This document shows positions 48,059 to 61,739 of a stretch of DNA of 64,000 nucleotides, in pieces; the stretch's first letter is position 1, and every line of letters starts with the position of its first letter. A program made the position numbers and the translations under genes. Where the stretch lies: contig LUZN01000009.1 of NCBI GenBank assembly GCA_001603665.1, positions 1-64,000 on the forward strand, in the 5' to 3' direction. The notes beneath the pieces are model-generated. The model was not told where the DNA came from. It worked only from the letters and a program-made list of their open reading frames with translations, and ran no database searches. The stretch comes from Bacteroidales bacterium Bact_22. GTDB taxonomy: Bacteria > Bacteroidota > Bacteroidia > Bacteroidales > F082.

Positions 48059-51000
48059 TTATTTCATTATGATTTTCTGTGTCTTTTCATTCAATTTCAA
48101 GATATAAACGCCTGTTTGTGACGGTTTTGCGATAGTTTCAACGCCGTTCACGTGTTGTGTCAACACCATGCGGCCCATCACATCGAAGATTTGGAGCTCG
48201 CCATCGCCGGTAACGATTATATCGGTGCCGCTCTGATAGGCAAAGATTTCTGAGTTCTCTGAGTTCTCGAAGCGGATAATAAACCTCGCTTGCCTATCCG
48301 CTGGTGAACCGATAAAGGTATACGATGGGTTCTCGCCGAGATCGATAACTAAATTTTCTAATAAATCTATTAATTCTATATTATTCAAATCTATTCCTTC
48401 AAAACTGATGGTATACGTTCCTGTTTCTTTCGCCTTGAAATTCAACGGAATATCGCCTTGACGGTTGCTGAACGCGATGGCATAGTCGGTGCCGTCTTGC
48501 GGGATATATAATTTGGTGCTGCCATCGAATATCTGCAATTTCGTCATTGTGTTCTTGCTGTCGAAACGCACTATGGCGCGGTCGATGATGGAAGTTGAGA
48601 GTTTAGAGTTTAGAGTTGAGAGGTTGATGACAATCTGTTCTGGTTCGTGTGATTGGCTACGGCCTTTGGTGCTATTAGAATTAGGTGTGAATGTCATTTC
48701 CTCGTAGTCAGAATCGGTATGTACGAAGATGCCTTCCATCGGGTTAACGGTGTTGTCTGTGGCTGCGATGATTTCCGAACCCTCGCCATTCATTCGATAG
48801 AAATCTTTTTCGATAGTGGCTTCCACGCTCCACGGGTTACCTACAAGGTTCCATCCTTCAAACGACACGCCTTCTGTCTTGGTGAGATTTACTACGCCAT
48901 CGCCGCTGTAAGGCCAACCGGTGAATGTGAGCGTAACATCTCCGCTGTTGGCGTAGAGATAACCTCTTCCCGATTCAAGGTCGAAATGGTAGTGGTCGGT
49001 TCCTTCTGCCTTCCAGTTTTCCCATTCCGCAGCAGCTTCTTGGTTGAAGCGGTAGAGGTCGAAGGTGTTGTCTTTCATGTGTTCCACATTATTCACATTA
49101 ACATCATTATACAAAGGCGAGGCAATCAGATACCAGCCGCTCTCATCGTCGGTATAGCCTTCGATATCCTTGGTGAATGTTTCAACTTTCCTGTAAAGTG
49201 ACGGTGTACCGCCAAAGTTAAACTCATAACAAGAGAAACCTTGGGATAAAAAACTAAGATATGAATTAAAACCACTATTCGAATTGGATTGGTTATTAAT
49301 ATTGTAAGCACCGTTACCCAGGGCGTCGTTAATCGACCACCGAGTTTGATAAGACTCATCTTCAGATAAACAGACATATCCAGCAAGGCTTTTAACTCCT
49401 GCGTATTTTTTGACTGCAGCGTTGTAGATAGTCCAATAGTCGAACTCATCATTGTGGGCAATATGCCAAATAATGTTAGCATCGCTTGTACTTATTACAT
49501 CATCAGCCACATTGACTGTTTCGTATTGGAAGTTGTTCCCGGAGACCACGTTATTCATGGCGTAGTTTTGATATACAATCAGATAGTCGCCTTCAACAAG
49601 GTAGTCTTCGTTATAGAGTTTAAAAGCAATAAGTTCTGTAGTCGTAGCGCTGACGGTGACATTGCTGGCAGGCATCTCGAAAGTGTTGCCGCCGGTGAGG
49701 GCGACGTCGTTGTTATCGGCATCCTTCACGGTGTAGCTGCCACTGATGGCATAGCCCTCTTCAGGGCTGAGGGTGACGCTGGTACCTTCGGTGTAATAGT
49801 TGTTGCCGCTGTATGAATACGCCGCTGTTGCCGTAGCGGTGATATGCTCACCCAAGGTGAGGCTGAACACCTGCACCGCGCCGTCGTCCTCGGTGATGTC
49901 GCCGTCTTTGTAACCGATGTTGGTTGTGTTGCCGTTGGCAGTGCAATTGTAGTAGTAGTTGTGGTTCAAGGTGGCATAACCACTATTACTGATAATAGCT
50001 CCGGCACTGCCGCTGTTGATGGTGCAATCTATGGCGAAACAGTTTTCGACGACGGGATCCTCATAATCACAACACCGATAATTATACCCCACGATACCAC
50101 CGGCAGCTCCAATGGCTGTGACGCTGGCTCCGTACGCCGTACATCCACTGACAATACCACCGACATTTTCGCCTACAATGCCGCCGTAATCATCACAATT
50201 TTCATATCCGTTGTTGGTGATGGTGGCAGCACTGGTACAGTTGCGAATGGAGGGCATCTTACCTACATCGCCACTGTTAATACCCGCAATACCGCCATGG
50301 TAATCTGATAAATAGCCATAAGCCTTGATGATGACGGTGCTGGTGACGTGGCAATTCTCGATGATACCGTTATCCTCATTGTCACCCGCAATACCGCCAA
50401 TATAAAACTCGCCGGTGATAATGGCATCGGTAAGAGTGACATTCTTCACGGTGCCATGGTTTAAACTGAAGAGTCCTTTGTTATCATTATGAAGATTGTC
50501 GTATGGATAGATGCGGATTCCGCTGATGGTATGGCCTGCACCGTCGAAGTGACCGCCCTCGTTAACGCGGATCGGTGTGTAGTTGCTCTCGGTCTCACCA
50601 AGGCCTTCATAGCTGTAGGTGAGATCTCTGCCCAACTGGTAGTATTCGCCGTTGTTGATTTCACTTATAGCTAACTGGTCCATCTGGGTGCGATACATGA
50701 TAATCCACGGGTCGTTCTCGGTGCCGCTGCCCGCCATGATGGTGACGGTGATGTCGGCGTTCACGGTGACATCGCTGGCAGGCATCTCGAAGGTGTCGCC
50801 GCCGGTGAGGGCGACATCGTTGTTGTTGGCATCCTTCACGGTATAGCTGCCGTTGAGGGTGTAGCCCTCTTCGACGCTCAACGTTACGCTGGTGCCGACC
50901 GCATAATAGCCGTTACCCTGGTAGGTGACTGCCGCTGCCGGTGTGGCGATGACATGTTCGCATAAGGTGAGCTTGTTGACACCGCGGGCGCCGTCACAGT

Positions 51001-54000
51001 CACTGCCGTTGGCGCCCACATTGGTGGAGGCGCCATTCACTGTGCAGTTGTAGTAGTAGTTGTCGATAAGGGTAATACTGGTTGTAAAATATTTGCCACA
51101 GATAGCACCTTTCTGGTAATCTCCTGTCGATGTAATCTGTGAATTCAACACAAGGCAGTTCTGAATAATATTGCTGGTATTGGTATAATCTCCCAAGATG
51201 CCACCGACAGAGTCTTTGCCGGTGATATGGGCATCGCTAAGGACGACGTTTTTGATAGTAGCATCACACACACCGCCGAAGAGACCTTGGTATTTGTCAG
51301 CATTGGTAGTACCCGTCTTGTTGATGCGGATGCCACTGATGATATGGCCGTCTCCGTCGAAGGTGCCTTTGAAATATCTTTGATTAACCCTAGTGCCTAT
51401 GGCAGTGTAGTTCTCGCCATTGTCGTCAAGGTCATTCGGGTCGTAAGCGATGTCGGCACCTAGCTTGATGAATTTGTTTGTGTAGAGGTTGCCGCCGTTC
51501 ACGCGGGTGGCGAGCAGGTCGAGCTGTGAGCGATACATAATAATGTAGGGGTCGGCCTCGGTGCCGGCGTGGCCAGTTGTGAAGTCGATTGCGGTTACTG
51601 TGGCGCTCACGGTGGCGTTGGTGGCAGGCATGATGAAGCTCCAGGTGCCGTCGCCGTTGTCGGTGGCTGCTTCGCCGCCCACGGTGACATCCGTGAGGGT
51701 GCAGCCTTCGGCAGCGATGGTGACATTGGCGCCAGCCAGCACACAGGCGGTGCGGCCTTCCTGCGCAAGCACGCCCGATGTGGCGTCGACATACTTCGGA
51801 AGCGTCAACGTAAAGACGGGCTGCAAGGTTTGTCCGGCGAGGGCATCAATCTGTGTATCGCTGAGGCTTCCGCTATAGACAGCAGTGCCGTCGCTGAGGT
51901 ACTGGCCGCTCTTGACCGCGACACCATTATCGCCATTGTAGCTGCTGGCATAGATACGGTCGGTAGCGTTGCGCCAACCAAGGGTGAGGGCGCCATTAGC
52001 ATTGATGCCGCCACCGTTGGCACTGACGCTGCCGCCGTTGATGGTAATATCATAGGCATAAATGTTATGGCTATTGGAAGAGATGGTGGTGATAATGCCA
52101 CCGTTGATGGTCAGGCCGCCGTCGTTAACAACAGGATTACTAAGCGATTCACCTACATAAATGGCCGTGCCATCGCTGCTAGCCACCAGACTGCCCGTAC
52201 CGAGGCTCTGACCGTAGATGCTGAGGCTACCGAAAGTAAAGATGGAAAATTGTCCTTCCACGGTGAGCGTGGCGCCATCCATCAGAATCAGATGAACGGC
52301 TCCATAGGTCTTGATAGCCTGATCGTCAGAAACAGTGATATTCACATTGCCGCTGACGGCATACCATGTCTCCGTTCCTACGGCGCCGAGTATGACGGTG
52401 CTGCCCGTACTGCTCTCGATGAGGGTGTAGTCGGTGCATATTTGCTCGTTGCCGTCGGCGTCGATATAGGGCACTCCTATGGTGGCGCTCACGGTGACGT
52501 CGCTGTCGGGCATGGTGAAGCTGTTGCCGGCAAGCGGAGTGCCGTTCAGGATGTAGCTGGTAACGGCGTAGCCCTGTGACGCAGCGTCGCTCAGCGTGAT
52601 GGTTTGTGTGGCACCGCTGTAGATGGTAGTGGAGGTGCCGTTATTGTAGCTGAGGGCGGTGGTGCCAAAGGCGGTGAGACCGCTCAGGTCGTATGCCGTC
52701 TGGTCGCCTGCAATGCCGACATGCTCACCCAAGGTGATGACACGGGCACGACGGGCACCGTCGCAGTCGCTGCCGTTCACGCCGCCATTATTGTTTGAAG
52801 TGTAGTAGTTGTTGATGAGGGTGGAGTTATTATTTTTTCCTGTGATGGCACCTTTCAAACTATCATTTGCTACAGTACCGGTATAGAGGCAATCTTTTAG
52901 TGTGGTAAAAACACATATACCTGCGATTCCACCGCAATACCATCGACCATTAACACTTGCGGCAATGACGGAGCCGCTGACAGTGCCATTATATTGATAT
53001 CCCACAATGCCGCCATGATAATCCTTATCATCGTTTTCCACACCTATGGTGACGTCGTTTCCTATACGGCAATTAGTTATGGTACCATATTCATTTTTAC
53101 CAGCGATACTGCCGACATACTCACCACCGATAATAATGCTGTTGGCAAGGGCGATATTTTTCACAGTGCTTCCTGAATAAACATAGCCGAAGAGCCCTTG
53201 ATAGTCGTTGGTAGTGTAGATGCGGATGCCGCTGATGGTCTTGCCGTTGCCGTCAAAGGTGCCGCGGAAGAGATGTGAATCTTTGCCGATAGCGGTATAG
53301 TTATTCTCGGTACTGTTGGCGTCGTTCCAATCGGTCGTATGTGTATATGTGATGTCGTTATTCAGTCTGAAATGCTTGTTATAGAAGCTGTTGGCGGTGT
53401 AGCCGTGGGTGCCGTTGACACATTTTGCGAGCACGTTGAGACCTGTAGTGTCGGAGATGATATATGGATGTGTCTCACTTCCTGTGGCGCCGCCAGCAAT
53501 ACCCCACACGTCGGTGAAGGTGCTGCTCACGGTAACATCTGATGCCGGCATCTCGAAGGTGTTGCCTACCACAGCGTGGGCCGTGCCGTCGTTGTAGGTA
53601 TAGCCGAGTTTATTGCCAGGATTTATCGTGCCAGTGTAGCCAAGTGTGATTGTAGTGTTTGAAGCGTAATAGGTCACGTTGTCAATCACAACGCTCTCGC
53701 CGCTGGCGGTGATATTATCACCTAGGTTGAGGAGGTGGACGCTGCGGGCACCGGCAATGTCGCCGCTGCCGGTTCCCACATTAATGGCATTGGCGGAGCC
53801 GTTCACGGTGCAGCCGCGGTAGTAGTTGGCCGTGTAGGTGCCATCATGGTAGTATTCTCCGATGATGGCTCCCACGATGCTGTTGCCACTCACGCTGGCA
53901 CCGACGACAAGGCAGTTTTCAATTTTGCCAGCTTGGTTCTTGCCTACGATACCGCCATATTTATTGCAACCCGTCAGTCCGTCGGCGATGCTTATGGTGG

Positions 54001-56554
54001 CGGCACTGGTGCAGTTGAGAATTTTTTCTGAGGAAAGGGCAGTCAAATTATACCCTACAATACCACCGTGCAGCGTGGAATTGTTGGCGACGGCATGGAT
54101 GGCTACGGTATTTGTGACATGACAGTTCACAACATGCCCATAGTGCCTCTCACCCATGATACCGCCGACAGAGATGTATCCCGTAATGCGGGCATCGGTG
54201 AGGGTGACGTTCAACACAGAACCGTCATAAGTCCTACCAAACAGTCCCTGGAAACTGTCATCGTTGCTGCTGCCGCCCTTGTAGATGCGGATGCCGCTGA
54301 TGGTATGGCCATCACCGTCAAAAACTCCTTTGAAATTGCGATAAGAGTCGCCATAAGAGCCGCCGATGGCGCTGAAGTTGTTCTCGGTGCTGGTGGCGTC
54401 GTTCCAGGCGGTGTTATGGACGTAGGTGATGTCGGCATCCAATTTGAAGAACTTGCCACTGTAGTTGTTTCCGCTGTTCACGTTGGTTGCCAACAGGTCG
54501 AGTTGGCTGGCATACAGAATCATGTATGGATCGTCCTCACTTGTGCCGCTTCCTGTCCATGGGATGGCGGTCCACTGGGCGTAGAGATCGACGGTGCCTC
54601 CGTCCTCGGAGGTGAGTCCTGTGACTGCCTCTCCGTCGCTATAGCTGGCGCCGCTGCCATCAGGTTGGGTGTTCCATCCGGCGAAGGTGAAGCCCTCGCG
54701 GCTGAAGGCGTTGGCGCTGAGGCTCTGCGCCACTCCATATTGGAATGCCTGGTCGCTCATCGTCCCCGTAACCGGGATGCCTATGCTGCCGTTGCCATAG
54801 AAACTGACGGTGTAGGTACTCCAGCGGATGGGGTAGGTTGCGCTAATCGAGCCGTTGTAGTTGCCAGTGCCCGTGGCGGTGACGGAGCCAGTGCCTGCCG
54901 AATAGGCGTTGGTCCACGACAAAGTGTAGCCTATGGTCTCGTAGAGTCGCACTTGGTTGGTGTTGTTCTTGATACCTTTATAGAAATATACCATCGGGCG
55001 CGGATGGATGGCATTATTGCTCACCACATACTCGCTCTGTAAGCCTGCAAACTCGGTATTGGTGGCGGCGAGAGTGTAGCTCTCCGTGCAGGTGACACCG
55101 TTGAAGGTCTTATCGAAGCTGTCGGTGTAGCCGCTGTTGCCTAAACCTTGGAAGAAAGTGCCTGTAAGGTCTTTGAAGTAGCATTGTAAACTGGTGATTG
55201 CCAATGTTGTACCGGCATTGGCATTGATGGTACCCTTGAAGGTGATCACATTGGTGCCGTCGCCCGAAACGTAAGTGGCATCGCCCCAGGAGGTGACAAG
55301 CTTCTTGTAGCCGCTGTAATTAGCTGTGTTCACAATCTCGCTGAACGGCACGCTGATATAGAATGTGTTATCTTTTACGTAAGGTCCCGCCGAAACAGTG
55401 ATGCCGGCGATGTTGATAGGTGTCGGATAGGTTTCATCGACCAAGGCGAGACGGACCTTGAGGTCTTTGAAGTCCCATTCGTCGTGGTCGTTACCACCGC
55501 CACCGGCGTCAAAACGGATATTGATGTTTTCAGCGGTAGGTAGAAGCACTAGCGAGCCGGAAGTGCTGGAGTTGTAAGAGCTGTTTATGAACTTCTGCTC
55601 GTAGAGATGGCTGTTGTTGTAATCGAACTCATAATGGGTGATGTTTGCGGCAATTTCCGCTGCCTTGTCCACATAGTTGTAACGATGCGGGAAGAACTGA
55701 TAATGTGGATCGCTCATCACGCTGCCACTAGGGGAATAGCTCAAAATGAAACAAGCCCGGTAGAGGGAATTGGTAAGCGTGCCTATGCCGCCATTGGGGT
55801 CATCCACTTTGTCGTATGTCCCTGCATTACCGGTATAAATTTGTATATACTGGTAACCGTCATGTTCCTCTTTTTGGGTGAAATAAACGGTGGCGTACAT
55901 CTTATAGCTGAGGGCGTTCAAGATAGTGCGCAAGTTGCTATTGCTATTGTAGAGGCTGTTGGTGCTGACAGTGTGAACGCCTTGGCTGTAGCCAGCGTCG
56001 GTTACCTGTGTCCAGTTGGACGAGGAATAACTGACATCGAGGTATTTGTTGCCACTGCCCGACATGATGCTGCCGCCATCGGTGAAGTACACCAGATCGG
56101 TGACGCTGTTGTTCAAGTAGGTGTTGCTGAACTGGGCACCCGTGGTGATGTCGCGGTCATTGTGTGCCAGTTCGAAGCCGTTGACATCGAGCACCTCGAA
56201 GCGGTAGCTGCGGGTGGTGCCCGTCTGATAATGGTATGCGTAAGCAGTGGAGTATTGTGCGCTTTCACTAACCTCTACCTGAAAAGTAGTAATGTTTTCA
56301 GGGAAGGTGTAAGTGTCGCTCACAGCGGTGTAGTGTATTCCCGCATAAGCCGAGAGGTTCACCGTGCGGTACTTGATGGTCTGCTGTGGCAGGCTGCTGC
56401 CGCTACGCGTGATGGTGAACAGGGTCTTGTGTGTGTTGCTGTTGTACGATGCCTCAATGGTGAAGGTCTGAGCCCAGACATTCTGTCCAAAAGCGACAGC
56501 CGCCAAAACCATTATTGTTGAAATGATTTGCTTGAAAGTAAAAGTTTTTCCCAT
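48059..56554 (-). CDS. Giant T9SS-secreted adhesin (2831 aa): Calx-beta-like N-term, InlB B-repeat, GLUG arrays, beta-helix-like segment, T9SS CTD
   Basis: FTFAGWNTQPDGSGASYSDGEAVTGLTSEDGGTVDLYAQW; multiple FDGDGHTISGIRI...GLFG GLUG blocks; LTINGGIITTISSNSHNIYAYDITINGGSVSANGGGINANGALTLG; C-term nearly identical to the 1467-aa protein. Confidence 0.9.
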   Translation of the reverse strand: MGKTFTFKQIISTIMVLAAVAFGQNVWAQTFTIEASYNSNTHKTLFTITRSGSSLPQQTIKYRTVNLSAYAGIHYTAVSDTYTFPENITTFQVEVSESAQYSTAYAYHYQTGTTRSYRFEVLDVNGFELAHNDRDITTGAQFSNTYLNNSVTDLVYFTDGGSIMSGSGNKYLDVSYSSSNWTQVTDAGYSQGVHTVSTNSLYNSNSNLRTILNALSYKMYATVYFTQKEEHDGYQYIQIYTGNAGTYDKVDDPNGGIGTLTNSLYRACFILSYSPSGSVMSDPHYQFFPHRYNYVDKAAEIAANITHYEFDYNNSHLYEQKFINSSYNSSTSGSLVLLPTAENINIRFDAGGGGNDHDEWDFKDLKVRLALVDETYPTPINIAGITVSAGPYVKDNTFYISVPFSEIVNTANYSGYKKLVTSWGDATYVSGDGTNVITFKGTINANAGTTLAITSLQCYFKDLTGTFFQGLGNSGYTDSFDKTFNGVTCTESYTLAATNTEFAGLQSEYVVSNNAIHPRPMVYFYKGIKNNTNQVRLYETIGYTLSWTNAYSAGTGSVTATGTGNYNGSISATYPIRWSTYTVSFYGNGSIGIPVTGTMSDQAFQYGVAQSLSANAFSREGFTFAGWNTQPDGSGASYSDGEAVTGLTSEDGGTVDLYAQWTAIPWTGSGTSEDDPYMILYASQLDLLATNVNSGNNYSGKFFKLDADITYVHNTAWNDATSTENNFSAIGGSYGDSYRNFKGVFDGDGHTISGIRIYKGGSSNDDSFQGLFGRTYDGSVLNVTLTDARITGYISVGGIMGERHYGHVVNCHVTNTVAIHAVANNSTLHGGIVGYNLTALSSEKILNCTSAATISIADGLTGCNKYGGIVGKNQAGKIENCLVVGASVSGNSIVGAIIGEYYHDGTYTANYYRGCTVNGSANAINVGTGSGDIAGARSVHLLNLGDNITASGESVVIDNVTYYASNTTITLGYTGTINPGNKLGYTYNDGTAHAVVGNTFEMPASDVTVSSTFTDVWGIAGGATGSETHPYIISDTTGLNVLAKCVNGTHGYTANSFYNKHFRLNNDITYTHTTDWNDANSTENNYTAIGKDSHLFRGTFDGNGKTISGIRIYTTNDYQGLFGYVYSGSTVKNIALANSIIIGGEYVGSIAGKNEYGTITNCRIGNDVTIGVENDDKDYHGGIVGYQYNGTVSGSVIAASVNGRWYCGGIAGICVFTTLKDCLYTGTVANDSLKGAITGKNNNSTLINNYYTSNNNGGVNGSDCDGARRARVITLGEHVGIAGDQTAYDLSGLTAFGTTALSYNNGTSTTIYSGATQTITLSDAASQGYAVTSYILNGTPLAGNSFTMPDSDVTVSATIGVPYIDADGNEQICTDYTLIESSTGSTVILGAVGTETWYAVSGNVNITVSDDQAIKTYGAVHLILMDGATLTVEGQFSIFTFGSLSIYGQSLGTGSLVASSDGTAIYVGESLSNPVVNDGGLTINGGIITTISSNSHNIYAYDITINGGSVSANGGGINANGALTLGWRNATDRIYASSYNGDNGVAVKSGQYLSDGTAVYSGSLSDTQIDALAGQTLQPVFTLTLPKYVDATSGVLAQEGRTACVLAGANVTIAAEGCTLTDVTVGGEAATDNGDGTWSFIMPATNATVSATVTAIDFTTGHAGTEADPYIIMYRSQLDLLATRVNGGNLYTNKFIKLGADIAYDPNDLDDNGENYTAIGTRVNQRYFKGTFDGDGHIISGIRINKTGTTNADKYQGLFGGVCDATIKNVVLSDAHITGKDSVGGILGDYTNTSNIIQNCLVLNSQITSTGDYQKGAICGKYFTTSITLIDNYYYNCTVNGASTNVGANGSDCDGARGVNKLTLCEHVIATPAAAVTYQGNGYYAVGTSVTLSVEEGYTLNGSYTVKDANNNDVALTGGDTFEMPASDVTVNADITVTIMAGSGTENDPWIIMYRTQMDQLAISEINNGEYYQLGRDLTYSYEGLGETESNYTPIRVNEGGHFDGAGHTISGIRIYPYDNLHNDNKGLFSLNHGTVKNVTLTDAIITGEFYIGGIAGDNEDNGIIENCHVTSTVIIKAYGYLSDYHGGIAGINSGDVGKMPSIRNCTSAATITNNGYENCDDYGGIVGENVGGIVSGCTAYGASVTAIGAAGGIVGYNYRCCDYEDPVVENCFAIDCTINSGSAGAIISNSGYATLNHNYYYNCTANGNTTNIGYKDGDITEDDGAVQVFSLTLGEHITATATAAYSYSGNNYYTEGTSVTLSPEEGYAISGSYTVKDADNNDVALTGGNTFEMPASNVTVSATTTELIAFKLYNEDYLVEGDYLIVYQNYAMNNVVSGNNFQYETVNVADDVISTSDANIIWHIAHNDEFDYWTIYNAAVKKYAGVKSLAGYVCLSEDESYQTRWSINDALGNGAYNINNQSNSNSGFNSYLSFLSQGFSCYEFNFGGTPSLYRKVETFTKDIEGYTDDESGWYLIASPLYNDVNVNNVEHMKDNTFDLYRFNQEAAAEWENWKAEGTDHYHFDLESGRGYLYANSGDVTLTFTGWPYSGDGVVNLTKTEGVSFEGWNLVGNPWSVEATIEKDFYRMNGEGSEIIAATDNTVNPMEGIFVHTDSDYEEMTFTPNSNSTKGRSQSHEPEQIVINLSTLNSKLSTSIIDRAIVRFDSKNTMTKLQIFDGSTKLYIPQDGTDYAIAFSNRQGDIPLNFKAKETGTYTISFEGIDLNNIELIDLLENLVIDLGENPSYTFIGSPADRQARFIIRFENSENSEIFAYQSGTDIIVTGDGELQIFDVMGRMVLTQHVNGVETIAKPSQTGVYILKLNEKTQKIIMK
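49651..49740 (-). repeat. Internal DNA repeat of the giant adhesin (copy A)
   Basis: Near-identical to 50759-50850; encodes GSYTVKDADNNDVALTGGNTFEMPASNVTVSA. Confidence 0.8.
50759..50850 (-). repeat. Internal DNA repeat of the giant adhesin (copy B)
   Basis: Encodes GSYTVKDANNNDVALTGGDTFEMPASDVTVNA; see copy A. Confidence 0.8.
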
Positions 56555-56733: not shown

Positions 56734-57768
56734 ATGAAGGAAATGCAGTTTTCAGCGGTGATGATGATGACGCTCATGGCGTTGGCGTTGCTCACCTTGC
56801 TGCCCGCCAAAGTACGCGAAGACCGCGTGGCCAACCGCTCGCGCTGGCTCATGACAGGCGGCCTGTTGCTGATAGCCGTGCAGTTCCTCATCCAATATAT
56901 CAGCGGCATGCGCTCATCCGACTTGCAACATGCCCTCACCGTCAACCTGGTGTTTTTCATCCCTTCGGCAGCCCTAATGTCGCTCAACATCCTCAACCTC
57001 GAGCGGCTGGGACGTGTGCGCCGTATCGAATGGACGATAGGCATAGTCACATGGCTGGTATCACTGGCGTTGGTGGCCTGCAAGGCGCTGGTGGCGGCAA
57101 GCGTGGTCTACGGCATGATGCAGGTCTACTACAGCTGGCTGCATCTGCGCGAGGTGCCCCGCCTGGAGCTGGCTCTCGCCGACTACTACGACACCGACGA
57201 CGACGGACTGCTCTGGTGGATCAAGATCACCATAGTGATACTGGCCCTCATCACCATGATGGTGCCTCTCATCATCTTCAGCGAAGGCTGGCTGATGGCA
57301 TGCTTCGCCTTGTTTATTTTTGTGGGTATATTCTACATGTGGTTCTGCTTTGTGCGCTACGTCATCACAGGCGCTGCCAATCACGTGCGCGAAGCTGAAC
57401 AAAGCATCGAGCAGGACGAGCACGCCAGCACGGTGACCGACGAGGCTCTGCAAAAGGTCGAAAAGGCCGTGAAACAATGGACTGCAGCCGGCGGACATCT
57501 GCATAGCGGCACCACCAAGCCCATGGCTGCTCAAGCCATGCAGCTGCCTCAATACCTGCTGTCGGCATGGATCAAAAATCAAGGATACTCCTCATATTCG
57601 AAATGGATCACCACCCTGCGTGTCGAAGAGGCGAAGCGCACGCTCCACGCGCATCCCGAATGGTCGAACGAGGCCGTTGCCGACCACTGCGGCATCAGCC
57701 GATCGCACTTCCAGCGGGTGTTTGCGGAGATCACCGGAGTAACCCCAATGCAGTATCAAAAGGGATAA
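56734..57768 (+). CDS. Membrane-embedded AraC-family transcriptional regulator
   Basis: Several hydrophobic helices, then C-term WITTLRVEEAKRTLHAHPEWSNEAVADHCGISRSHFQRVFAEITGVTPMQYQ (AraC HTH). Confidence 0.9.
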   Translation: MKEMQFSAVMMMTLMALALLTLLPAKVREDRVANRSRWLMTGGLLLIAVQFLIQYISGMRSSDLQHALTVNLVFFIPSAALMSLNILNLERLGRVRRIEWTIGIVTWLVSLALVACKALVAASVVYGMMQVYYSWLHLREVPRLELALADYYDTDDDGLLWWIKITIVILALITMMVPLIIFSEGWLMACFALFIFVGIFYMWFCFVRYVITGAANHVREAEQSIEQDEHASTVTDEALQKVEKAVKQWTAAGGHLHSGTTKPMAAQAMQLPQYLLSAWIKNQGYSSYSKWITTLRVEEAKRTLHAHPEWSNEAVADHCGISRSHFQRVFAEITGVTPMQYQKG

Positions 57769-57905
57769 TTTCGTCACAAGACTTCCGAATTTCGTCACAA
57801 AATTGGTGTATTTCGTCACAAAACGACCGAAATTCGTCACAAAATCCCGGATTTCGTCACAAATTTGCCGAATTTCGTCCCAAAATGGAATTTTTCGTCC
57901 CAAAA
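57769..57905. repeat. Seven-copy direct repeat array, unit TTTCGTCACAAAA + 7-8 variable nt, period 20-21 bp
   Basis: CG of the core at about 57772, 57793, 57814, 57835, 57855, 57876 and 57896; last two units share GTCCC; partial copy TGTCACAAAATG near 57926. Confidence 0.92.
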
Positions 57906-58009
57906 GGATTTTATTGCCATCAATGTTGTCACAAAATGTGATGAGATATTTGTTTGAAAGAAAACAAAAAAAATCTGTAAAAAACCGTAAAATATGTGTG
58001 ATAATTTGT

Positions 58010-58017
58010 TAATTTTG
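58010..58017 (+). promoter_or_regulatory. Bacteroidota -7 box TAATTTTG for purL
   Basis: TAnnTTTGC 20 bp upstream of the purL ATG. Confidence 0.55.
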
Positions 58018-58037: not shown

Positions 58038-61000
58038 ATGATAATCTTTTTCAAAACCCGTCAAAACACCGTCATCGCTGTAGAAAGCGCTGATAATCAC
58101 AACGATAACGACATTAAAAAATTCAGTTGGCTCTTCGGCGACGCCACAAAAATTGAAGAAAAAACCGTCAAAGGCTTCTTCTTCGGTCCGCGCCGCGAGA
58201 TGATAACCCCTTGGAGCACCAACGCCGTCGAAATAACTCAAAACATGGGCATTCGCGGCGTTTCTCGTATAGAGGAATTCCATCCCGTCGAGGAAAACGA
58301 CAACAGCTTCGACCCGATGCTGCAAAACAAATACCACGACCTCGACCAGAACATGTTTTTTGTCGACCGCAAGCCTGAGCCGCTGAAATATATCACCGAT
58401 ATCGACGCCTACAACAACGAGGAAGGCCTCGCACTCAGTCAGGAAGAGATTGATTATCTGAAAGGTATAAGCAAAAAGATAGGCCGCGCCCTCACCGACT
58501 CGGAGGTCTACGGCTTCGCACAGGTCAACTCGGAGCACTGCCGCCACAAAATCTTCAACGGCACCTTTATTATTAATGGCAAGGAGATGCCCGACACTCT
58601 CTTCGCACTCATCAAGAAGACCTCGAAAACCAACACCAACCGCCTCGTGTCGGCATATAAAGACAACGTCGCCTTCATCCTCGGACCGAAGGTCGAACAG
58701 TTTGCGCCGGCAACTCAGCATAAAGCCGACTTCTTCAAAATCAAAGATATAGATACTGTTATCTCTGTCAAGGCAGAGACGCATAACTTCCCGACAACCG
58801 TCGAGCCGTTCAACGGAGCCGCAACAGGCACCGGCGGTGAGATTCGCGACCGTCTCGCTGGCGGTAGAGGCTCGATTCCGTTGGCAGGAACAGCCGTTTA
58901 CATGACTTGCTACCCTCGTAACGACGAGAGCCGCGAGTGGGAAGACAACTTCAAGGCACGTCCGTGGCTCTATCAGACCCCTGAAGAGCTGCTCATCAAG
59001 GCTTCGAACGGCGCATCAGACTTTGGAAACAAGTTCGGACAGCCGCTCATCAACGGCTCGCTCCTCACCTTCGAACATAGCGAAAACGACAATAAAACCA
59101 ACGACTACGGCTACGACAAGGTCATCATGCTCGCGGGCGGCATCGGATTTGCTCCGGCTGACGACAGCATGAAGGAAGACCCAGAGCCGGGCGACCTCAT
59201 CATAGTGCTCGGCGGTGACAACTACCGCATCGGAATGGGCGGCGCCGCGGTCTCGAGCGTGGGTACTGGCCAGTATTCCAACGCCATCGAGCTCAACGCC
59301 GTGCAGCGTGCCAACCCTGAGATGCAGAAACGTGTGGCTAACGTCATACGCGCCATGGTGGAAAACGACAGCAACCCAGTGCGCTCAATCCACGACCACG
59401 GCGCCGGCGGTCACCTCAACTGCCTCAGCGAGCTCATCGACAAGAGCGGCGGCACAGTATACGTCGACAACCTCCCAATCGGCGACCCTACCCTTTCCGA
59501 TAAGGAAATTATCGGAAACGAATCGCAGGAACGTATGGGACTCCTTGTAAATAAACAAGATACGGAGATCATCCGCCAGACAGCCGAACGCGAGCGCGCA
59601 CCTTATTATATGGTTGGTGAGTCAACAGATGATAAGCGTTTAAGATTTGTCCGCAAAAACGGCGTGAATCCTATAGATTTGAGCCTCTCCGACTTCTTCG
59701 GAAGCGCTCCAAAGACCGTTTTGACCGACAACGACGTCGATTACAAATTCAAGAAAATCGAATATCAGGATAATAAATTCGAAGATTACCTCAAGAAGGT
59801 GCTTCAGCTCGAAGGCGTGGCTTGTAAAGACTGGCTAACCAACAAGGTCGACCGCTCGGTTACAGGTCGCGTCGCCTTGCAGCAGTGCGCCGGCGAGGTA
59901 CAGCTTCCACTCACCGACCTCGGCATCATGGCACTTGACTATCAAGGTGTTAGAGGCATCGGAACAGCACTCGGACACGCTCCGGCAGCAGCTTTGATAA
60001 GCCCTGAAGCTGGCTCGAGACTGTCGGTGGCTGAATCACTTACCAACTTGGTGTGGGCTCCTATCGAGGAGAACCTCAAAGGCGTTTCATTGAGCGCCAA
60101 CTGGATGTGGCCAGCCAAGAACCCAGGCGAGAACGCACGACTCTACCGCGCCGTTAAAGCGTTGAGCGACTTCGTATTAGCTCTCGGCATCAACGTCCCG
60201 ACAGGTAAAGACTCATTGTCGATGACACAGAAATACAAAAACGGTCAGAAGGTCCTTGCTCCTGGCACCGTCATCGTGACGGCAGCAGGCGAAGTCACCG
60301 ACATCCGTAAAGCTGTTAAACCAGTGGTTGTCAACGACAAAGACACCGAGATTCTGTACATCGACTTCTCGAAAGACGCATTCAAACTCGGAGGCAGCAG
60401 CTTCGCACAGATCATCAACAGAGTCGGCGAAAGCACACCAGATATTGTTGATACTGAATACTTTAAGAAGTGTTTCAACACCTTGCAGAAACTCCTCGAG
60501 CAGAAACTCGTTCTCGCAGGTCACGACGTGTCGGCAGGCGGTTTGATCACCACCTTGCTTGAGATGACGTTCGCCAACAACGAAGGCGGCTTGGACATCG
60601 ACCTAAGCGCACTCGGCAGCGACCTCATCAGCGTGGCATTCAGCGAGCAACCGGCTGTCGTTATCCAAGTTAAAGATAAGAAGGTCAAAGAGTTACTCGA
60701 CAAAGAAGGCATCAAATATGCTGTCATCGGCAAGCCAAACAGCAAGCGCAGCATCAATCTTAAGAAAGACAAAGAGTCTTATGAATTGGATATCAACGCT
60801 TTACGCGACCTTTGGTATAAGAGCTCATATCTACTCGACAGAAAACAGAGTGGCGAAGCGAAGGCAAAAGAGCGTTTCGAAAACTATAAGAATCAAGCAC
60901 TTAAGTTCGATTTCGGAAGCTTCACCGGCAAGGCCAAGGATTTGGGCATCGACATGCACCGTCGCACTCCTTCGGGCATAAAAGCCGCCATCATCCGTGA

Positions 61001-61739
61001 AAAAGGCTGCCAATGTGACCGCGAAATGGCTTACGCGCTCTACACTGCCGGATTCGATGTCAAGGATGTACACATGACCGACCTCGTAAGCGGACGCGAA
61101 GACCTCAGCGACGTGAATATGATAGTGTTTGTTGGCGGTTTCAGCAATTCCGACGTTCTCGGTTCGGCAAAAGGCTGGGCTGGAGCATTCCTCTTCAACG
61201 AGAAGGCACGCATGGCTCTCGAGAACTTCTACAAACGTCCTGATACCATGAGCCTCGGCGTCTGCAACGGCTGCCAGCTCATGACGGAGCTCAACCTCAT
61301 CTACCCTGACCACGACAAGCATCCGCGCATGATTCACAACGACTCACACAAGTTCGAATCAGGTTTCGTGAACGTGAACATCGAAGATAGCAACAGCATC
61401 ATGCTCAAGAGCCTCAAAGGCCGTCGTCTCGGTGTGTGGATCGCTCACGGCGAGGGCAAGTTCAACTTCCCTTACGGCAAGGAGAAATACAACATCGCGT
61501 TGACCTACAGCTACGACGGATACCCGGCAAATCCTAACGGTTCGCCATGGTCAGTGGCCGGTATTTGCTCCGCCGACGGCCGTCATCTCGCGATGATGCC
61601 GCACCTCGAACGCGCCTTCCTCCCATGGCAGTGGGCTTACTATCCGCAGAATCGCAAAGATGATGAGATAGCACCATGGATTGAGGCGTTTGTCAATGCT
61701 AAAGAATGGATTAAAAAGAATCAGCGCATCAACTTGTAA
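58038..61739 (+). CDS. purL: Phosphoribosylformylglycinamidine synthase (single chain)
   Basis: [48 protein letters not shown]-term GATase [10 protein letters not shown]. Confidence 0.98.

Follow-up and report, generated by a model that had tools for sequence, protein, structure and literature searches.

The tandem array that lies between a membrane AraC-type regulator gene and purL is probably a set of operator sites for a different protein altogether: a family of membrane LytTR regulators represented in the same genome by a gene on contig C19. We favour this reading with considerable, though not full, confidence because the repeat word is strictly linked to lytTR, recurs in drifted form at distant orthologs and keeps a single orientation. 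The putative LytTR operators comprise seven or eight units, where two are usual. A natural misreading is thereby corrected, namely that the array is a property of the AraC-type gene that it adjoins.

The array in the window

In the window – the whole 64,000-nucleotide stretch of Bacteroidales DNA analysed here – the array and its neighbours are placed as follows:

56734..57768, + strand: membrane AraC-type regulator gene (ORF; six hydrophobic segments and an HTH_AraC domain)
57768..57906, + strand: seven regular units ATTTCGTCACAAA, candidate operator sites (direct reading, weight-matrix scan, core/spacer comparison)
57925..57936, + strand: weak eighth unit GTTGTCACAAAA (weight-matrix scan; membership doubtful)
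58010..58017, + strand: purL promoter -7 element TAATTTTG, common to relatives that have no array
58038..61739, + strand: purL (phosphoribosylformylglycinamidine synthase), possible target of the array

A preliminary description, drawn from the letters of the window, had reported seven direct repeats of about 21 bp between the regulator gene and purL, and direct reading bears this out: the first T of TTCGTC in the regular units stands at 57770, 57791, 57812, 57833, 57853, 57874 and 57894, giving successive spacings of 21, 21, 21, 20, 21 and 20 bp. It was right, too, that the array starts straight after the regulator's stop codon (TTTCG from 57769, the ORF ending at 57768), that GTCAC gives way to GTCCC in the last two regular units (six and seven), that the adjoining gene encodes a membrane AraC regulator, and in its identification of purL. 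To these seven units we add the weak eighth, which is set off from the seventh by a gap of 31 bp and has a weight-matrix score of 10.5 against 13–29 for the others. A perfect inverted repeat, TCACAAAATGTGA at 57929–57941, overlaps this weak unit.

Tandem Repeats Finder ranks the array as the strongest in the window (score 116–143). Matches to the word with up to two mismatches number 16 in the window, compared to a shuffle mean of 8.3, and no shuffle reached 16. Since columns of the 13-bp core are 0.90 identical among the array's units and spacer columns 0.37 (permutation p 0.0003) – cores kept, spacers diverged – the units are probably bound by a protein. The proposal of a protein-binding array with sites two helical turns apart is well supported; as regards the binder, the most likely candidate is the membrane LytTR protein of contig C19 and not the adjacent AraC protein.

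A conserved home at lytTR–fabH

A search for the core in the genome and its relatives, as the preliminary description had proposed, returned a second array, of seven units, on contig C19. It separates fabH from a divergently oriented lytTR gene, whose product combines a LytTR domain with four hydrophobic segments. For the AraC/purL part of that description, the search returned what the description itself had named as refuting evidence: relatives that keep the regulator with no array next to it. At lytTR–fabH the picture is one of strict conservation. Each of the 19 genomes that carry a close ortholog (73–100% identical, the source genome included) has five to seven units between the two genes. 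Both the window array and the lytTR arrays keep a period of 20–21 bp, within the 20–22 bp of LytTR direct-repeat operators, and in every one of the 19 the word sits just upstream of the lytTR promoter, in a register that is fixed in most: the last unit lies 32–33 bp from the TAnnTTTG element of lytTR in 14 of the 19, and 34 bp from it in nine distant loci. On the fabH side the corresponding distance is 36, 57 or 77 bp in 19/19; this amounts to a single fixed phase, some genomes having degenerate terminal units. The 57-bp phase is found also at SGNH-hydrolase promoters of two genomes (G063, G131) and, roughly, at fadD in three (G067, G115, G116). Two further LytTR proteins are encoded in the source genome, a membrane protein on C48 and a response regulator on C54; no units were found upstream of either gene.

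The regular units of the purL-side array stop 116 bp short of the -7 element of purL, a distance that falls outside the 36/57/77 bp series seen at fabH. The lytTR/fabH architecture is thus not reproduced in the window, where the units form an array of sites and not a standard LytTR promoter.

Distribution and drift of the word

The paired word occurs in 30 of 173 family genomes, all 30 belonging to the source genus, while the reversed-pattern control gave no match in the 173. Beyond close orthologs the word changes along with the regulator. Where lytTR orthologs are 43–44% identical, and likewise stand at fabH, the cores have drifted to TTCGCCAC (G128, G090) and TTCACCAC (G044); distant orthologs across Bacteroidales have the drifted cores TTCGCCAC, TTCACCAC and TTTACCAC at about 20 bp. 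The related loci come from rumen and gut Bacteroidales MAGs. Pairs of TTYRYCMC spaced 19–22 bp lie upstream of lytTR, in one orientation, in 30 of 73 LytTR relatives drawn from other Bacteroidales genomes, against none of the 73 for the reversed pattern and 3 of 2632 control stretches. A motif-free lag test upstream of lytTR peaked at 20 bp, with 21 loci against one control stretch, the compared lytTR loci sharing descent in such a way that these counts are not independent events. The one-sided orientation, together with a word that drifts along the regulator lineage, argues for a binding relation between the two.

Weighing against the favoured reading, ten genomes of the genus have TTCGTCAC arrays and no close lytTR ortholog, only a 41–44% identical ortholog elsewhere; the word may therefore have several readers among LytTR proteins. 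The TTCGTCAC arrays examined precede fadD or an SGNH hydrolase gene.

Two side observations belong here. Arrays of the TTCGTCACTAAAA type stand before fadD (L129, L139, L140) and before the SGNH hydrolase gene (L128, L135, L155, L156) in genomes from which the close lytTR ortholog is missing. In G093, G105 and G061, degenerate pairs of the word stand before a second membrane LytTR gene (L220:3800-3861, L235:3865-3900 and L222:3950-4010), a hint of cross-regulation.

Ectopic sites and dispersed elements

The purL-side array was found in one genome only when purL loci were compared with those of 15 relatives. We regard it as an ectopic, lineage-specific set of candidate sites, to be grouped with other ectopic arrays. 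Two-unit sites in the source genome lie before ribF (C75) and before an outer-membrane-protein gene (C60), which in a relative belongs to the Omp85 superfamily. Elsewhere, G110 and G119 have arrays in the space between convergent genes, a space that is almost nil in most relatives possessing the gene; in G139 an array lies at the resolvase start codon, and G048 has one close to an AbiH gene. In two genomes arrays of four to five units (L136:4000-4095, L141:3976-4050) occupy the convergent 3′ ends of acyltransferase and transglutaminase-like genes, a gap that in most relatives is almost nil.

We also saw a dispersed element, roughly 78 bp long, in which direct repeats TTCGACCnnnAGATAC, spaced 61 bp from each other, flank two LytTR-type sites. 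It sits at asd–ribF, rsmI–OMP, rfbC–tsaB, a DPP-IV peptidase gene and other gene ends (L157:4920-5005, on C75 of the source genome G000; L217:3940-4010, on its C60; L146, L149, L150, L151 and L152); its inner spacer is similar among loci within one genome and different between genomes. Depending on the species, the asd–ribF junction (L338–L356) holds the 78-bp element or, unrelated to it, GTCATTTCGACTGAAGCG-type repeats or GGACAAGGCATGCCTTGTCC palindromes: this junction is a landing hotspot for intergenic repeats.

The source of the purL-side array was sought in the lytTR array of its own genome. In a scrambled-spacer test the two scored 144 against a null maximum of 107, a result suggestive of copying; in a permutation that left spacers intact, 213 of 720 spacer orders were equally good. 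Orthologous lytTR arrays mostly retain their spacer order (1–7 of 720 in seven of ten comparisons). With 213 of 720 orders equally good, the purL array could not be traced to the home array, and no source copy for it was demonstrable.

Competing explanations

The explanation that comes first to mind – and that the preliminary description had put forward – is that the array is the operator of the adjacent membrane AraC-type regulator, acting on that regulator's own gene or on purL. The gene adjoins the array, the array lies upstream of purL, and AraC sites can stand about two helical turns apart, a spacing that would suit such a protein. The comparative data tell against it. The AraC-type gene was found in 15 of 99 genus genomes, and the array accompanies it in one of these 15, being absent beside the full-length matches (40–73% identical) of the 14 others; the co-occurrence of array and regulator family that had been suggested as a check is therefore not what the genomes display. 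The array is likewise absent upstream of purL in 15 relatives, where the -7 element TAnnTTTG is retained, and it is present at lytTR–fabH in 18 other genomes, many of which have no AraC-type gene. We accordingly rejected both an AraC operator, the array failing to track the gene among the 15 genomes that have it, and a conserved purL operator, given the absence from 15 relatives despite the common -7 element. The adjacent AraC-type protein is probably not the binder, and the operator explanation as a whole we hold to be very improbable. Because relatives do not have the array there, it has no conserved role at AraC–purL; the adjacency of these genes is itself particular, since in G137 and G061 a convergent low-molecular-weight phosphatase gene comes after the AraC-type gene, with purL kilobases distant. 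(On its other side the AraC-type gene adjoins a divergent gene, 48059-56554, for a secreted, repeat-rich protein of 2831 aa, a relative of which holds the matching place in G137 and G061.) Still less can be said for iterons or another replication-linked repeat, a suggestion that the 20–22 bp spacing, and nothing else, recommends: no replication initiator gene was found among the array neighbours (the AraC-type gene, purL, lytTR, fabH and others) and no plasmid context was seen, the purL context being chromosomal and the conserved, recurring neighbourhood being lytTR–fabH. We give this suggestion practically no credence.

A more serious contender is a movable, dispersed intergenic repeat, derived from LytTR sites and without function at purL, which we consider a real possibility while leaning against it; this judgement concerns the local role of the array and overlaps with the reading of its units as LytTR operators. 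Ectopic arrays, and the 78-bp two-site element at varied gene ends with spacers common within a genome, favour it, as does the restriction of the purL array to one genome. Against it, the purL array retains its cores while its spacers are randomised, no terminal repeats were seen at that array, no source copy is at hand, and the word has a strictly conserved home. The mobile or dispersed repeat of the preliminary description therefore survives in part: related arrays and two-unit elements do occur at unrelated gene ends, but the word's home by lytTR is fixed. It is also conceivable, if quite unlikely, that the units are sites of another protein, whether a paralogous LytTR regulator or a factor of unrelated kind, which only by chance acts at lytTR–fabH. 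The ten genomes with TTCGTCAC arrays and no close lytTR ortholog fit this idea, as do the degenerate pairs before the second LytTR paralog; the repeats upstream of lytTR itself across Bacteroidales, with a word drifting with the regulator, do not, nor does the absence of such sites before the two other LytTR genes of the source genome.

A model for array function

From these regularities we infer a scheme of binding, cooperativity, autoregulation and a possible effect on purL. The direct-repeat sites would be recognised by the membrane-anchored LytTR regulator encoded on C19, whose gene is divergent from fabH. In the home array, placed between the lytTR and fabH promoters at set distances, binding would most likely be cooperative, one protein unit to every two helical turns, and occupancy would control both promoters; autoregulation of lytTR would probably take the form of positive feedback. 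The purL-side array, as a second set of sites for the C19 regulator at the 3′ end of the AraC-type gene, should recruit the same protein. With the purL -7 element 85–240 bp downstream, the array may modulate purL at a distance. Alternatively, it could be a competing sink, holding 8 of the ~19 sites found in the genome (counted as pattern matches), or it could have little effect. Direct action on purL is possible, and the promoter register lends it no support; here we rate a regulatory role and an idle or sink role as roughly equally likely.

A bolder view, which we think unlikely, is that multi-unit arrays of LytTR sites are movable modules in this genus, serving as anchors or sinks and not as promoter operators. 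Such arrays and two-site elements would arise anew at gene 3′ ends, including gaps between convergent genes, in which a promoter is not to be expected, and would bring chromosomal loci to a membrane-bound transcription factor or titrate that factor.

For the C19 LytTR operators that we favour, the significance is twofold. They supply a candidate DNA word, and a regulon to start from, for the membrane LytTR proteins of gut Bacteroidales, a class that is widespread, little studied and tied to fatty-acid genes: fabH at home and fadD in sister species. And LytTR operators of seven or eight units would open cooperative binding, titration and the tethering of DNA to the membrane to direct test.

Relation to known systems

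No published description of the arrays, or of the lytTR–fabH link, was found in the literature searched. Among the nearest known systems, REP/MITE-like repeats resemble the arrays in that their ectopic copies at gene ends vary from species to species; the present word differs from them in its conserved home locus and fixed promoter register, and no terminal inverted repeats were seen.

The direct repeats that LytTR proteins bind lie just ahead of the promoters of the regulators themselves, the typical case being a pair of 9-bp repeats separated by 12 bp (PMC6193735). Sites of the AgrA/HdrR type follow this plan – two 9-bp repeats about 12 bp apart – and share with our arrays the 20–22 bp period and tandem orientation, whereas here the core TTTCGTCACAAA is different, the copies are more numerous and the regulator is membrane-bound and has no receiver domain. 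Closer still are the membrane-LytTR operons of Bacteroides, whose regulators carry transmembrane segments and in which 11-bp repeats, 11 bp apart, stand 11 bp upstream of TATCTTTG promoters (PMC6193735). The likeness extends to repeats about two helical turns apart upstream of the regulator's promoter, to the combination of transmembrane segments with a LytTR domain, and to a promoter of the TAnnTTTG type. The differences are these: five to seven units in place of two, a different core, a single array shared by two divergent promoters, lytTR and fabH, and an additional array at the unrelated AraC–purL locus.
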